Shown: positions 21,262 through 28,843 of the stretch, one piece after another
Numbering within the stretch: the stretch's first letter is position 1
Layout of the letters: every line of letters begins with the position of its first letter
From: Phenylobacterium sp.
GTDB taxonomy: Bacteria > Pseudomonadota > Alphaproteobacteria > Caulobacterales > Caulobacteraceae
Direction: 5' to 3'
Length of the DNA stretch: 64,000 nt
NCBI RefSeq assembly: GCF_016793225.1
Contig: NZ_JAEUMN010000071.1
Span: 1 to 64,000, forward strand
The notes under the pieces: model-generated
What the model was told of the DNA's origin: nothing
The model's input: the letters and a program-made list of their open reading frames with translations, nothing else
Databases searched by the model: none
Translations under genes and position numbers: made by a program

Positions 21262-21384
21262 GGGTCGAGCTTGGCGATGGCCGATGACACCCGCCTCGCC
21301 GGAACATTTGCTTTCGCCCATGTTCCCCGGCGGCGGACGCCCGAGCGCTTGCGGCGGCGTCGCGGCGCGCTAGACGTTCGGGCG

Positions 21385-22206
21385 ATGTCCGCGTTCGACG
21401 CCCGCGACCTGCTCGACTGCTACGCCCGCGGCGTCTTCCCGATGGCCGACGCTCGCGAGGACAGCCGCGTCTTCCTCATCGACCCCGAGCGCCGTGGCGT
21501 CCTGCCGCTCGAGACCTTTCACGTCCCACGGCGGCTGGCCCGGACCGTCCGCGCCGACGCCTTCGACATCCGCGTCGACACCGCCTTCCATGACGTGGTC
21601 CTGGCCTGCGCCGCGGCCGGACCTGGCCGCACGGAAACCTGGATCAACCGGCCGATCGAACGGCTCTATCTCGAGCTCCATCGCATGGGACACGCCCACA
21701 GCGTCGAGTGCTGGCGCGGCGACCGCCTTGTCGGCGGCCTCTACGGCGTCTCGCTGCGCGGCGCGTTCTTCGGCGAAAGCATGTTCTCGCGCGAGCGCGA
21801 CGCCTCGAAGGTGGCGCTGGTCCACCTCGCGGCCCGGCTTATCGCCGGCGGCTTCCGGCTGCTGGACGCCCAGTTCATGACCGAACACCTGCGCCAGTTC
21901 GGCGCAACGGAGATCGCCCGGGCGGAGTACCACCGAAGACTCGCCAGGGCCCTGGAGGTGGAGGCCGAGTTCTACGTCGGCGGCGACGGGGCCGCGGGTT
22001 CGGACCTCGGCGGCTCGGCGGCCTTCGCCGGCGGAGCGGCGGCGGGCGCGGCCGGCGAAACCGGAGCGGGGGCGGCTTTGGCCGGCGGCAGGTCCAGCAA
22101 CTTGGGCTCGGCCGCAGGCGGCGCCTTGGCGGGCGGCGGGCGCACCGCCGCGGTCACGGCGGGCGCGGGCGCGCTGGCCCTGCAGCTGATCAGCCAGGCG
22201 TCATAG
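21385..22206 (+). CDS. aat: Leucyl/phenylalanyl-tRNA--protein transferase with extended C-terminus
   Basis: Adds Leu or Phe to N-terminal Arg/Lys of proteins, marking them for ClpS/ClpAP. Core motifs: [44 protein letters not shown]...[19 protein letters not shown], and [16 protein letters not shown]. The family usually stops near residue 200-235. Here the frame continues to 273 residues with a Gly/Ala-rich tail (from about residue 200) that is antisense to the end of the DUF2155 gene. The tail is probably non-functional read-on. Confidence 0.93.
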
Positions 22207-22784
22207 GTGGCGTGCTCCACCGGGTGCAGCCCGGGCGACGAGGCGAACATCCAGCCGCGGAACGCCTGCTTCGGCGCCGGCGTGGGCCGGCCCGGCTGCG
22301 CGCGGGGCTGGGAGTCGATGCTCACATAGACGATGGAGTCCTCGATCGCCTCGTCCGGCGCCGAGCGCTCGCAGGCGCTCACGGTGAAGACGAGGCCCTT
22401 CCACCGCACCGGGGCGCCGACGCGCGCCTCGAACCGGAGGGTTTCGGCCGTCACCTTGTCGATCGCCTGCAGGATCGCGACGTCGTAGGCGCGGGAGCGG
22501 CGGATCGGCGCCGCGGCCGGCTTCTCGGCGACCTGCGCCTTGGGCGGCGCGGCCGGGGCCACCTCCTCGGCCGTCACCGGCGCGGCGACCGCGGGCGCGG
22601 GCGCAGCCACGCTGGACGGGGGAGCCTCCTCGGGCGGCGGCGCGGCGACGGGCGCCGAGGGCGCGTCCGGGGCGGTGGGCGCGCTGGGGGCCGTCGGCTG
22701 CGCGCTGACCACGCTCGCCACGCACGCGCCGATGACAAGGCCCGTGGCGGTGCGGGAGATCAGGCGAGGCGGGCGGCGTCCCAT
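21972..22784 (-). CDS. DUF2155 domain protein, exported, Pro/Ala-rich
   Basis: Signal peptide (residues about 1-28), long Ala/Pro linker (29-95), then the conserved DUF2155 core: [54 protein letters not shown] and [15 protein letters not shown] (about 98-205). A second Ala/Pro tail ends the 270-residue protein. DUF2155 genes sit next to the NDUFA12-type gene in many alphaproteobacteria. The core has two conserved Cys residues. The function is unknown. The last 235 bp overlap aat on the other strand. Confidence 0.9.
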
Positions 22785-22790
22785 GCAGGC

Positions 22791-23195
22791 CTACTCCGGG
22801 CTCCAGGCCTCGTAGTCGCCCGTGGCGCGCTGCCGGTCTCCGCCACGGGAGATCGCGCCCTTGGGCCGGTAGGCGTGAATGGTGCCCGTGAGGTTCGGGC
22901 GGTGGTCCTTCTCCCAGGCCTTGCGCGGCAGCGGCGCGGCCGTCGGCGGCTCGTCGAAGGTGTAGTGCAGCCAGCCGTGCCAGTCGGCAGGCACCTTCGA
23001 GGCGTCGGCATAGCCCTTGTAGATCACCCAGCGCCGCTTGCGGCCGCGATCGTAGCTGTCGCGATCGTCGCGCGCCTCGAAATAGCGGTTGCCAAGCTCG
23101 TCCGTCCCGACGAGGCGGCCGCGCCGCCAGGTCGTGAAATGGATGCCGGTGGTGGCGCCGTTCCACCAGGTGAAAATGGTCTTCAGGACGGACAA
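22791..23195 (-). CDS. NDUFA12 (B17.2) family complex I accessory protein
   Basis: Bacterial homologue of the mitochondrial complex I subunit NDUFA12. Motifs: [58 protein letters not shown] and the C-terminal YEAWSPE. 134 residues, normal. It lies seven bases upstream of the DUF2155 gene on the same strand. Confidence 0.95.
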
Positions 23196-23317: not shown

Positions 23318-23366
23318 CTGCGAATCACGACGCGCCTTAGGCTCGGCCGACTTGGGAGGAGGCCGA

Positions 23367-25817
23367 ATGGACAGCGAGACCGCACAGGCCGGAATCGAGC
23401 GCCGCCTTCTCGAGATCGGCGGCGGGATGGTCGAGGTTGAGGCTCCCGCCCACTTCACCACGGCCAGGGTCGAGGCCTGGATCGGCTGGGCCGAGGGTCG
23501 CGCCGACATCGCCGCCGCGATCCAGGCGTTCGCCTACGAACTCGCCGGCAAGGCGCAGGCGAAGGGACTGACGCGCGACCTCAAGACCCGCACAAGGTTC
23601 CGCGAGACGCTGGCCGAGGCGATGCTGCACGGCCGCATCGGCTTCCTGGCGGCCGGACCGGCGCTCAAGGTCCTGGAACCCGGAAGCGGCGCGCTGGACG
23701 CCGTGACCGCGTCGCACCGTGGCCGGGAGGCCGCCCAGGCCGCGGCCAGCCTGAACGCGGCCCGGCTGCAGGCCGTGATGGACGCCGTCCTCCGATGCGA
23801 GGGCGACGGCGACGCCTGCGCCGATCCCGCCCGCAACGCCTCCCTCGCGCGCGCCGCCGAGGCGGCCCGCGCCGCCGGCGCCACGGACGCCGCCATACAG
23901 GACGCCATCGCGCTGGTCCGGGGCGGCGAGACGATGTGGCTCTGCTCGCTGCCTCCGCCGCCGCCCGTGACGCCGTACGTCGCGCTCCGCGGGCAAGGGT
24001 CCGCCCTCGCCCGCGCCGCCTGGACCACGGGCCGTGTGGTGGCCGCGCCCGACGTCGTGAGCGCTTCGGCGATCGCCGAGGCCGCGGCCATGCCCGCCGC
24101 GGGCGTGGAGCTCATGGCCTTCTGGCGCGACGGCGCCTTCGACGAGGCGGCGTTCGCCGCGGACGTGGCGCTCGCCGCCACCGCGCTGGCCGCGGCGCAT
24201 GACGGGCCCGTGCGCCTCGGGCTCGCCGGCCTGGGCGACTGGCTGGTCGCCCACGGCTTCGACTACGACAGCGACGCCGCCCGCTCCGCGGCCCGCAACC
24301 TGTTCCAGGCGGCGCGGGACGCGGCCGAGGACCTCGACGTCGACCTCAAGTTCGCGCTGATGTCCGAGCCCGAGCTGGCCCTGCGCGTCGGCGGCCGCCT
24401 CGACGCCGCCCCCTGGGAGGGCCCCGTCACCCTGGCCGAGACCGCCGACGGCGAGGCCGTCCGCGTGTTGTCCGAGGCCGCGATCCTCGGGCTGCAGGCC
24501 ATCGGCGCGGACCGGACCGAGGTCCAGGCCCGCCTCCTGGGCCGACGGCACTTCGCCGACGCCCCGGGCGTCAACGTCCAGAGCCTGACCGCGCGGGGCT
24601 TCACCAGCCTCGAGATCGAGGCGGCGCAGGCGGAGCTCCCGTTCGTCCGGAACCTGGCGCAGGCGTTCGCCCCGCACGTGGTGGGCGAGGGCTTCCTGCG
24701 CGACGTCCTCGGGGCGACGGGCGATCAGCTCGACGATCCCGCGCTCGACGTCCTGGCGCTCGCCGGCTTCCCGCCCGGCGACGTCGCCGCGGCCGAGGCG
24801 TTCATCCTCGGCGGCGACAGCCTCGAGGACGAGGCGCTCGACGATGACCAGCGCGCCGTGCTCCGTTCGCGCGACGCGACGCCGCTCTCCGCGCAGGCCG
24901 CGATGCTGGCCGCCCTGACCCCCGTGCTGGACATTCCGCCCGTGCTCGAGGTTCCGCTGCCCTGGTCCGCAACGCTGGCGGACGTGGCGGCCGCCCTGGC
25001 GGCGGCGGACATCGCAATCCGGCCGCGCCGTGGCCCGCCGCCCCTCGCCGCCGAACTGGACCTTCCGCCTGCCGCTGAGCGCCCCGCCCCCGCCCGCGTC
25101 CAGGCTCCCCAGGTCGAGGAGCGCGTGGTCGAGCGGATCGTCGAGCGCGAACGCACGCGGCGCAAGCTGCCGGACCGGCGCAAGGGCTACATCCAGAAGG
25201 CCAGCGTCGGCGGGCACAAGGTCTACCTCCACACCGGCGAGTACGACGATGGCGAGCTGGGCGAGATCTTCATCGACATGCACAAGGAAGGCGCCGCCTT
25301 CCGCTCGCTGATGAACAACTTCGCGATCGCGATCTCGATCGGCCTGCAGTACGGCGTTCCGCTCGACGAGTTCGTGGACGCCTTCGTCTTCACGCGCTTC
25401 GAGCCGGCCGGCGAGGTCAAGGGCAACGACACCGTCAGGTCCGCCACCTCCATCCTCGACTACATCTTCCGCGAGCTGGGGATCAGCTACCTGGGCCGCG
25501 ACGAGCTCGCGAGCGCCGATCCGGCCGGGCTGAACGCCGACGGGCTCGGACGGGGGAAGGCCGAGGCGGCGCCGGCCGAGGACGCCGAGCCGCAGCCGGC
25601 CTCGCGGTTCATCAGCCGCGGCTTCGCCCGTGGCGCGGCCCCCGACAACCTGGTGTTCCTGCCCTCGGCGGGACGTGCGCCCGGGCCGGCCGCGATGGGC
25701 GCCGCCGAGGTCTGCGCCGCATGCGGCGACATCGCGGTCGTCCGCAAGGGACAGGCCCTGATCTGCGAGACCTGCGGCGCCCGGGCCGGCCGCCTCAATG
25801 AGACTCCGACCGGCTAG
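23367..25817 (+). CDS. Degenerate class II ribonucleotide reductase-like protein (NrdJ paralogue, TSCPD and Zn-ribbon kept)
   Basis: 816 residues; GGGAGGAGG precedes ATG 23367. Class II NrdJ traits survive in order. [14 protein letters not shown] (near 145) parallels the NrdJ insertion [27 protein letters not shown] is near 295 and [15 protein letters not shown] near 460. From about 590 the C-terminus is strongly NrdJ-like: [60 protein letters not shown] and [16 protein letters not shown]. Last is a zinc-ribbon, CAACG...CETCG (782-805). I do not see the catalytic-core signatures (NPCSE-type, PTGTIG-type, loop cysteines), and the protein is about two thirds of NrdJ length. Probably a non-catalytic relative, perhaps regulatory. 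Confidence 0.75.
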
Positions 25818-25986
25818 GCCCTGCCGGCAGCGCGGTCCGTCGAAGCTGGGAGGACGGCCGCGCGGCCGGTTCCTCAATCCGGGTAGGATCGTCGCTAAGT
25901 CCTTCCAAGTTACCGCGAATTAAGTGGCGCCTGCCGGTGGATGCAGGCATCCGTCACCTCCAGACCACCGGAGTTGCGCCGTCACG

Positions 25987-26988
25987 ATGCGTTCCCGTTC
26001 GCCCCGTTTCCAGGCCGCCCTCGCCGCCGCCACAGCGATCCTCGCGATCGCGGGCGGCGCCGCTGCGGGCGACAAGGAAGTGCGCCGGCAGGACTCGTTC
26101 GGCGGCTCCTGCACGAAGTGCGAGCTGTCGGGCCGCAACCTCCGCGGGGCGCGGATCATCAGTGCGAACTTCTCGGGCGCGACCATGGTCGGCGTCATCC
26201 TGCGCGAGGCCAAGCTCCACGCTTCGGTCTTCGCGAGAGCCGACCTCACCAAGGCCGATCTGACCGAAACGGTGATGACCGGCGCGAACTTCTCCGGCGC
26301 CAACCTCACCTCCGCACGGGCCCGCGCCGCCGAGGCCAACGGCGTGCTGTTCGGCAGCGCCAACATGACCCGGATCGACCTGGCCGACGCCGAGGCTTCG
26401 GGCGCCGTGTTCGCCCGCGCCATCCTGGTGGGCGCCAACCTTCGGGCCATGACCATCCGCGGCGCCTCGTTCTCGCAGGCCGATCTCAGCCAGGCCGTGC
26501 TCAACGACATGGAGGGGACAGGCGCGTCGTTCGAGCGCGCGGTCCTGCGCGGCGCGAGCTTCCGCGCCGCCGAGCTTCAGGGCGCCAGCCTGTCGCGCGT
26601 CGAGGCGCGCGGGGCGGTCTTCTCGGACGCGACGCTGACGGGCGCGAACCTGTCGGGCGGCCAGTTCCAGCACGCCGCGTTCCGCTCGGCCGACCTCACG
26701 GGCGCGAACCTGACGGGCGCGAACTTCGACGGCGCGGACTTCCGCGACGCCGACCTCACCCACGCGCTCATTTCGCGGGCCGACCTCTCGGGCGCCCGTG
26801 GACTGCGGCAGGACCAGCTCGACGACGCCTGTGCGGACAGCCATACGCGGGTCCCGCCAGGGCTCACGGCCCGGACCTGCAGCGGCGCGCGGTTCATCTA
26901 CCGGAGCCACGCGAAGCCGACGATCCGCTTCGTGCCGATGGCGCCGCCGGCGCCCCCCGCGCCACCGGCTCCGCCCGGGCCGCGCTAG
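25987..26988 (+). CDS. Exported pentapeptide-repeat protein
   Basis: Signal peptide (residues 1-25, ending GGAAAGDKE), then about 35 pentapeptide units of A(D/N)LxG type forming a right-handed beta-helix: LSGRNLRGARIISANFSGAT through ADLTGANLTGANFDGADF. One CTKC pair (near residue 38) precedes the helix, and a further Cys pair and a Pro-rich tail end the protein. 333 residues. The function is unknown; the fold suits protein-protein contact. It is convergent with aspS. Confidence 0.88.
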   Translation: MRSRSPRFQAALAAATAILAIAGGAAAGDKEVRRQDSFGGSCTKCELSGRNLRGARIISANFSGATMVGVILREAKLHASVFARADLTKADLTETVMTGANFSGANLTSARARAAEANGVLFGSANMTRIDLADAEASGAVFARAILVGANLRAMTIRGASFSQADLSQAVLNDMEGTGASFERAVLRGASFRAAELQGASLSRVEARGAVFSDATLTGANLSGGQFQHAAFRSADLTGANLTGANFDGADFRDADLTHALISRADLSGARGLRQDQLDDACADSHTRVPPGLTARTCSGARFIYRSHAKPTIRFVPMAPPAPPAPPAPPGPR

Positions 26989-27004: not shown

Positions 27005-28783
27005 TCAGGCCTTGATCGGCGGGGCGAGGCGGATGTGCAGCTCCTTCAGCTGCTTGTCCGCGACCTCGGAGGGCGCATTCATCATCAGGTCCTGCCCCTG
27101 CTGGTTCAGCGGGAAGGCGATGACCTCGCGGATGGCCGTCTCGCCGGCCAGGAGCATGACGATGCGGTCGATGCCGGGCGCGAGGCCGCCGTGGGGCGGC
27201 GCGCCGTGGCGGAAGGCGTTCAGCATGCCGCCGAACTGTTCCTCGACCACGCTCTCGTTGTACCCCGCGATCTCGAACGCCCGCACCATGATCTCGGGCA
27301 GGTGGTTCCGGATCGCGCCCGAGCACAGCTCGTGGCCGTTGCAGACGATGTCGTACTGGTAGGCGAGGATATCCAGAGGATCCTTGCTGTTCAGCGCCTC
27401 CAGCTCGCCCTGCGGCATCGAGAACGGGTTGTGGCTGAAGTCGACGTGGTTCGTCTCCTCGTTCATCTCGAACATCGGGAAATCGACGATCCAGACGAAC
27501 TCGAAGCGGTCCTCGGCCACCAGCTTCAGGTCGGTTCCGACCTTGGTGCGGGCGTTGCCGGCGAACTTGTAGAAGGCCTTGGGATCGCCGGCCACGAAGA
27601 ACGCGGCGTCGCCCTGCCCGAGGCCCAGCGCGCCCATCAGGGCGTCGGTCTTCTCAGCCCCCAGGTTCTTGGCGATCGGACCGCCCCAGCCACCCTGGTC
27701 GTCGGACCAGAAGATGTAGCCCAGGCCCGGCTGGCCCTCGCCCTGCGCCCAGCTGTTCATGCGGTCGCAGAACGCCCGGCTGCCGCCGCTCTTCGCGGGG
27801 ATGGCCCAGACCGCGTTCTTCCTGTCCTCGAGGATCCGCGCGAAGAGGCCGAAGCCGCCGCCGCGGAAGTGATCCGACACGTCCTGCATGACGATCGGGT
27901 TGCGCAGGTCGGGCTTGTCCGAACCGTACTTGGCGATCGCCTCGCGGTACGGGATCCGTGGGAACGGGTACGGCGTGACCGGCTTGCCCTCGCCGAACTC
28001 GGTGAAGACGCCGTGCATCACCGGCTCGATGGCCGCGAACACGTCCTCCTGGGTGACGAACGCCATCTCCACGTCGAGCTGGTAGAACTCCAGCGAGCGG
28101 TCGGCGCGCAGGTCCTCGTCGCGGAAGCAGGGCGCGATCTGGAAGTAGCGGTCGAAGCCCGACACCATGAGCAGCTGCTTGAACTGCTGCGGCGCCTGCG
28201 GCAGCGCGTAGAACTTCGACGGATGCAGGCGCGACGGCACCAGGAAGTCGCGCGCGCCCTCGGGCGAGCTGGCCGTCAGGATCGGCGTCTGGAACTCGAG
28301 GAAGCCCTGCTCGATCATCCGGCTGCGGATCGACTGGATCACGCGCGACCGCAGGACGATGTTCCGGTGCAGCGTCTCGCGGCGCAGGTCGAGGTGGCGG
28401 TTCTTGAGCCGGATCTCCTCGGGATAGTCGGGCTCGCCGAAGACCGGCAGCGGCAGCTCGGACGCCTCGGACAGCACCGCGACGTCCTTCACCTTCACCT
28501 CGACCTCGCCGGTCGGCAGGTTCGGGTTCACCGTCTCGGCCGTGCGGGCGACCACCTCGCCGTCCACCCGGATCACGCTTTCGGCGCGGAGGTGCTCGAC
28601 GATGTTGAAGCCCGGGGTCGACGGCGCAAGGACCAGCTGCGTCAGGCCATAATGGTCGCGCAGGTCGATGAAGATCAGGCCGCCGTGGTCGCGCTTGCGA
28701 TGGATCCAGCCCGAGAGACGGACGGACTTGCCGGTGTCGGCGGCGCGGAGCGCGCCGCAGGTATGGGTGCGGTAGGCGTGCAT
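27005..28783 (-). CDS. aspS: Aspartyl-tRNA synthetase (bacterial type)
   Basis: Charges tRNA-Asp (possibly also tRNA-Asn, since alphaproteobacteria often use a non-discriminating enzyme). N-terminal OB fold ([22 protein letters not shown]), class II core with [43 protein letters not shown], the bacterial GAD insertion (about residues 290-410), and motif 3 [13 protein letters not shown]. 592 residues, normal. ATG 28783 precedes the [11 protein letters not shown] start typical of AspRS. Confidence 0.97.
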
Positions 28784-28843
28784 TTTCCGAGGGAAACGGG
28801 GTGTTTTACGAGGCGCGGAAGGGCGCACGGAGGGGGCGGAAAG

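Follow-up and report, generated by a model that had tools for sequence, protein, structure and literature searches.

An NrdJ-derived pseudoenzyme with a conserved C-terminal part in Phenylobacterium and related Alphaproteobacteria

The locus and the predicted protein

The window analyzed here, a 64,000-nucleotide stretch of a Phenylobacterium sp. draft genome, carries on the plus strand, at 23367..25817, an open reading frame of 816 aa for a pseudoenzyme derived from NrdJ, the class II, B12-dependent ribonucleotide reductase (RNR). An AGGAGG resembling a ribosome-binding site (23357..23362, plus strand) is read four bases 5' of the ATG. The gene is preceded by aat (21331..22206, plus strand; TIGR00667; ends not refined), a DUF2155 gene (21972..22784, minus strand; PF09923) and the divergent NDUFA12 gene (22791..23195, minus strand; PF05071, NF006040), and followed by a pentapeptide-repeat gene (25924..26988, plus strand; PF00805) and aspS (27005..28828, minus strand; TIGR00459). 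All these neighbors, the pentapeptide-repeat gene excepted, served as synteny markers. An anti-phage system was rejected, PADLOC having found 0 families, and so was descent from a phage: matches to the protein occur in 5 of 50,697 phage records, all from residue 600 onward and at <60% identity. A tail match at 50% identity is found in the Bradyrhizobium phage KY940711.1 (31267-31890), under the names class II RNR and hypothetical protein.

The NrdJ model NF005736 matches the protein with E 2.4e-109, scoring 367 bits where the cut-off is 1737. The TSCPD model PF12637 passes its Pfam cut-off (39 bits vs. 22.8; E 9e-10), and the RNR barrel model PF02867 yields E 0.015 only. A canonical profile, built from 56 catalytic NrdJs, aligns at residues 125-188 (28 bits), 284-312 (4 bits, not significant alone), 360-768 (365 bits) and 780-808 (11 bits). 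These segments stand in NrdJ order, as an earlier note on this DNA had proposed from short motifs and the Cys4 segment. The C-terminal half dominates the match, 365 of ~410 bits falling within residues 360-768. All 59 other genomes of the genus searched have a match to the protein, partial in some cases, and chance is thereby excluded.

Residues 10-359 (23394..24443, plus strand) are predicted to fold as a shrunken RNR barrel without catalytic cysteines, pLDDT being mostly >90. This region includes the NrdJ helical segment at residues 125-188 (23739..23930, plus strand), marked by an 11-letter motif, and a barrel remnant at residues 284-312 (24216..24302, plus strand), marked by a second one. 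Residues 361-488 (24447..24830, plus strand) form a domain common to residues 702-832 of Rhodobacter sphaeroides NrdJ (phmmer, 7b9p/7b9q, E 4e-11), which we take to be the 'HUG dimerisation domain' of the literature. The TSCPD domain, nearly identical to that of catalytic NrdJ, covers residues 598-715 (25158..25511, plus strand; PF12637 match at 612-704), and is followed by a conserved 16-letter motif at residues 747-763 (25605..25655, plus strand), with invariant columns from S750 to N761, and by a zinc ribbon at residues 783-803 (25713..25775, plus strand), formed by C783, C786, C800 and C803 and devoid of the shuttle pair. The NPCSE and PTGT motifs were looked for in the protein and are absent, in agreement with the initial reading that catalytic-core signatures are missing. 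Likeness confined to the TSCPD segment had been named in the earlier note as evidence against an NrdJ-derived protein; homology is present beyond it, in residues 125-188 and 361-488 and in the RNR fold.

The structure prediction called for by the same note gave an RNR-like protein. The AlphaFold2 model, based on an alignment of 58 sequences, has a mean pLDDT of 84.4 and a pTM of 0.69; residues 10-560 mostly exceed pLDDT 90, and are followed by a flexible linker, the TSCPD domain (~70-86) and the small zinc ribbon. The best solved match by Foldseek is the R. sphaeroides RNR 7b9p (E 4.9e-16, TM only 0.45, rmsd 9.4), next come the Thermotoga NrdJ and class I alpha subunits. The modelled tail alone matched no solved structure at E <=0.001 (best E 0.14), and a profile search of solved chains with the tail gave matches to the zinc-ribbon end only, at E >=0.18.

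Residues lost and kept at the nrdJ locus

Cysteines were compared in an alignment of 64 catalytic alphaproteobacterial NrdJs and 74 relics, relics being proteins >740 aa long with neither NPCSE nor PTGT, and numbered after the protein L119. Among the proteins collected, 80 have neither motif, 66 have both and 3 have PTGT only (the hybrid L056, L105, which is cut by the contig, and the variant L135); L154 was left out because split into two frames. L119 residues C214, C490 (in NPCSE) and C501, which we take to be the active-site cysteines, i.e. the thiyl-forming one in NPCxE and two reducing ones, are found in 64/64 catalytic NrdJs vs. 0/74 relics; the loss of C490 is partly a product of how the relic set was built, that of the other positions is not. 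The shuttle cysteines C1242 and C1254 are similarly distributed (64/64 vs. 0/74). The four zinc ligands, in contrast, are present in 64/64 catalytic proteins and in 73/74 relics, the exception being truncated by a contig end. The loss of core cysteines and the conservation of the Cys4 ribbon, which the earlier note wanted checked, hold across these aligned relics. In a tail-only alignment, from which two relics without C-terminus (L041, L054) were excluded, relics retain the zinc ligands in 67/67 and the shuttle pair in 0/67 cases, and proteins with a catalytic motif feature the former in 60/60 and the latter in 59/60 cases, the exception being the hybrid L056. Zinc and shuttle roles were transferred to the relics by position from Stackebrandtia nassauensis NrdJ, for which the authors propose from mutants a zinc-binding role for four C-terminal cysteines and an electron-shuttle role for two more (PMC5704485). 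With zinc ligands kept and the shuttle pair gone, electron transfer would have been lost and structure retained.

Conservation of the NrdJ-invariant columns changes sharply along the protein. Of the 74 such columns in L119 951-1150, relics keep 96-99%, vs. 3-36% in 401-600; values range from 1 to 36% in most of the catalytic half, reach 61% at 351-400 and are 51-68% at 751-850. Judged by its motifs, the relic would not work as a class II RNR, active-site cysteines, PTGT and shuttle pair all being missing, and the view of an inactivated B12-dependent enzyme which kept its C-terminal part, TSCPD and zinc ligands included, is borne out by the cysteine alignment.

Two loci deviate. In L056 (1-2119), a Brevundimonas contig from a metagenome-assembled genome (MAG), the barrel is of the catalytic NrdJ type and shares 78% identity with the Paracoccus NrdJ L109; it is joined to a tail of the relic type, which has no shuttle pair and shares 84% identity with that of a Brevundimonas relic. 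The contig begins inside the NPCSE motif; either recombination has renewed the gene, or the assembly has produced a chimera. The relic L154 of genome G262 is divided between two frames, as one ORF of 624 aa and another of 432 aa, through either sequencing error or real decay.

NDUFA12 adjoins 64 of the 65 relic loci examined; aspS was found in 46, many flanks being short. A pentapeptide-repeat gene is a conserved downstream neighbor, at 61 of the 65. Among 56 catalytic nrdJ loci, NDUFA12 occurs in 18, together with aspS in 3, and none of the four markers lies within the fetched flank of the other 38; in many alphaproteobacteria NrdJ may be encoded elsewhere in the genome. In family f115, catalytic loci read have NDUFA12 in 4/4 cases, three with aspS. 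Because relic and catalytic loci have neighbors in common, the window gene is taken as nrdJ itself rather than a copy of it, a positional orthologue which decayed in place. The paralogue proposed in the earlier note did not survive this comparison, as no second tail gene accompanies the first in any of 219 genomes of the order. The same is true of the window's genome (97.5% complete draft, 197 contigs), where the only TSCPD match is the window gene and a search for a second NrdJ-like gene found none. The partnership with a resident NrdJ, also proposed, fell as well: within class I and II, the draft assembly holds a single RNR barrel, that of NrdA (NF006577, above cut-off), beside NrdB, and no class II match with PF02867.

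Distribution within and outside the order

Genomes of the order at least 95% complete (219) were surveyed for the tail and for the catalytic core, the latter scored at >=56% identity over nearly the whole query. The tail resides in 208 genomes, the core in 48, and 161 have the tail without the core; family counts were made by hand from genome tables, and the sequences read cover a portion of the 161 loci. The tail is found in families f1 (47/50 genomes), f2 (49/49) and f3 (36/36), all three with 0 cores. In f4, 39 of 47 genomes have the tail and 11 the core, 10 of them with the tail; in f5, tail and core are both found in 37/37. Family f1 would hold Phenylobacterium, Caulobacter and Brevundimonas, judging by where named loci fall in the tree of the C-terminal half. 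Each tail-bearing genome has one tail match, split into two pieces in two genomes, and a relic was seen alongside a catalytic gene in none of the 219.

The tail is missing in 11 of the 219 genomes, ten of which also lack the core, so the gene can be lost altogether and is not indispensable everywhere. Those without tail and canonical core are G074, G078, G082, G154, G164, G174, G222, G100, G105 and G109. Weaker core matches (<=111 bits, 30-38% identity, ORFs of ~580-850 aa) in some genomes are, by size, NrdA or another RNR, a few being the relics themselves. Genomes with extra core matches include G010, G051 and G057 (~33-38% identity, ORFs of ~740-780 aa), which perhaps encode a second class II RNR without tail.

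For the C-terminal half, a tree was computed by a quick method on 417 columns and 87 rows, the latter thinned by hand from 138 aligned ones, mostly by removing near copies. It unites 48 relics in a single clade (SH-aLRT 99), and gives one origin for the relics of the order. In the TSCPD-only tree (78 rows, 130 columns), built without duplicates, L158 and five f22 loci lacking a recognisable core (L187, L194, L195, L198, L199), order relics are not resolved as one clade and need four changes, only one of which is forced by the starred branches.

The tail was found in 93 genomes of a class-wide sample of 143. Among the 91 tail genomes outside the order, five, belonging to four families, have short ORFs (301, 278, 565, 530 and 667 aa), with NDUFA12 adjoining or nearby and NPCSE and PTGT missing; a sixth short ORF (1028 aa) begins at a contig end and carries the catalytic motifs. 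The four outside relics scanned all match NrdJ models. Relics of the four families share the TSCPD domain only, the shortest (272 aa) lacking the zinc ribbon. PF02867 detects a NrdA-sized gene in each of the five genomes, plus an 854-aa gene in G276, and also matches the relic itself in G342.

Variation is marked in the order of G341. A short TSCPD protein (ORFs of 273-292 aa) is encoded by 19/20 genomes of family f76, which measure 1.0-1.5 Mb; neither catalytic motifs nor zinc ribbon are found in the 10 distinct genomes read. In family f115 of the same order, 19/20 genomes have catalytic-length ORFs, and in the four loci read the motifs are intact and six cysteines stand at the C-terminus. 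In f22, sampled at one genome per genus, a match is present in 40/40 genomes and the canonical core in 0/40 (best match 94 bits, 38% identity); motifs are missing in the 16 distinct genomes read, the zinc ribbon in the 15 tested. The ribbon is missing also in relics read from f77. When 78 TSCPD segments from relics and catalytic proteins are compared, 32 columns reach an identity of 95% or more; conservation is lowest in f22, whose TSCPD is much less conserved than elsewhere.

Independent losses outside the order can be argued from taxonomy, short proteins of f76 and catalytic-length genes of f115 coexisting in one order, as both forms do in family f4 of the window's order; such an argument falls short of proof. 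Relics of f22, f11 and f77 are likely independent. The reverse case was encountered in a single genome (G245): the product of L148 (2008-4713, minus strand) features the barrel, NPCSE, PTGT and the six-cysteine ribbon, and lacks TSCPD along with much of the middle domain.

Possible functions and known systems

A tail kept almost unchanged in a large bacterial group suggests a second job. According to work on the S. nassauensis enzyme, the NrdJ C-terminal domain is required for the tetramers and hexamers induced by dATP or dGTP, and experiments with mixed effectors gave a hint of a third site for nucleotides (PMC5704485). In the interpretation that we favor, with a probability of roughly 40%, nrdJ would have lost its active site in one ancestor within the order, and the product would have been retained ever since as a folded pseudoenzyme, its C-terminal part acting independently of nucleotide reduction. 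The role kept may be the non-redox one of the domain, i.e. the dATP/dGTP-promoted assembly into higher oligomers, which we infer by analogy with the S. nassauensis protein; assembling on purine dNTPs, the relic could act on deoxynucleotide metabolism as a scaffold or regulator. It may bind nucleotides or have a regulatory role, as first suggested from the sequence. The selected function may involve the barrel remnant too, because this still folds in the model.

Class I NrdAB would be the most plausible client, on a speculative hypothesis in which the relic supplies a missing dATP switch. A search of 100 order genomes for the ATP-cone gave one match in each of the 100, the ORFs spanning 152-427 aa and being, with few exceptions, about as long as NrdR; as the ATP-cone occurs once per genome, in NrdR-sized ORFs, NrdA and NrdB of the order seem to be without the usual dATP switch. 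This lack is common to genomes with catalytic NrdJ and to genomes with neither form, so that NrdAB is not singled out and other partners fit equally.

That the gene is an ordinary pseudogene in decay would agree with the eroded catalytic half, the 11 of 219 genomes without tail and the split L154. This is nevertheless most improbable, as the relic is kept in 161/219 genomes after one origin, its predicted fold is confident, and crude NG86 dN/dS estimates against seven of the ten aligned congeners are 0.20-0.46 overall, 0.08-0.24 for the tail and 0.22-0.63 for residues 1-359. Selection is purifying, strongest on the tail, and decay was rejected on these values. There is a very slim chance that the relic is part of a working reductase, either as an NrdJb-like electron donor or as an allosteric subunit for a separate alpha subunit. 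Pseudomonas NrdJ is split into NrdJa and NrdJb (PMC5704485), and the extra core matches of some order genomes (30-38% identity, ~580-850 aa) may be a second class II RNR; yet the window's genome has no class II match with PF02867, and the shuttle pair is missing in 74/74 relics, for which reason an electron donor for another RNR was rejected. An action on transcription or on another step of dNTP supply, e.g. via NrdR and not NrdAB, is rather unlikely. Retention of the zinc ribbon in the order speaks for it, as do the NrdR-sized ATP-cone proteins of the 100 genomes searched, called NrdR by size; no DNA-binding feature was found, however, and relics read from f22, f76 and f77 do without the ribbon.

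It is quite possible, if short of even odds, that TSCPD has a function unrelated to nucleotides, such as RNA, DNA or protein binding, NrdJ being its carrier and the relic a moonlighting module. The small genomes of f76 retain the TSCPD protein in 19/20 cases, without zinc ribbon in the 10 read, and the modelled tail, with no significant match to solved structures (best E 0.14), offers no tie by fold to nucleotides; against this, the experiments found on the domain containing TSCPD tie it to NrdJ assembly dependent on dATP and dGTP (PMC5704485). A purine-dNTP scaffold or regulator derived from nrdJ is retained as the preferred reading. A broader version, likewise tentative, is that alphaproteobacterial NrdJ would be bifunctional, TSCPD having an undescribed, class-wide function separable from reduction; several lineages would have kept that function alone, the extreme being the 272-aa protein of very small genomes, at least one lineage would have done the reverse, and the relic would be a regulator. 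If so, the regulator would be of a new kind, perhaps sensing purine dNTPs in place of the missing ATP-cone control of NrdAB. Repeated retention of TSCPD after catalytic loss makes the function of this orphan RNR domain directly testable in a model organism, in whose family no catalytic copy is seen.

Among the matches listed for open-licence PMC papers, covered by titles and abstract openings, none deals with an alphaproteobacterial NrdJ that is inactive. In PMC5869019, CCNA_01966 of Caulobacter crescentus bears the name vitamin B12-dependent ribonucleotide reductase; a B12 pathway figure in PMC6538847 shows the C. crescentus gene as NrdJ, and the B12-dependent enzymes of its legend include NrdE and not NrdJ. 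We infer that CCNA_01966 is a relic, because relics reside in the Caulobacter loci L038, L042 and L043 and the core in 0/50 f1 genomes. Relatives read in the same family are motif-less, the MAG contig L056 excepted. Models of these bacteria which place a B12-dependent reductase at the CCNA_01966 locus probably include a wrong step there.

NrdJb of Pseudomonas aeruginosa (PMC5704485) resembles the relic in being a NrdJ C-terminal domain detached from the catalytic barrel, and differs in having a partner, NrdJa, and presumably redox cysteines, the relic having no partner found and no shuttle pair. The relic shares with catalytic NrdJ (NF005736; 7b9p, R. sphaeroides) domain order, RNR fold, a near-identical TSCPD, zinc ligands and, for part of the catalytic genes, the locus. 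In contrast, it is without the presumed active-site cysteines, NPCSE, PTGT and the shuttle pair, and is ~380 residues shorter (median of stop-to-stop ORFs). Viral R1 proteins such as M45 of murine cytomegalovirus are catalytically dead RNR large subunits, and hence RNR pseudoenzymes like the relic; M45, however, is class I and viral, and differs in the part retained and in function. Stand-alone TSCPD proteins occur in other bacteria without RNR, whereas for the relic both the descent from NrdJ and the locus can be traced.
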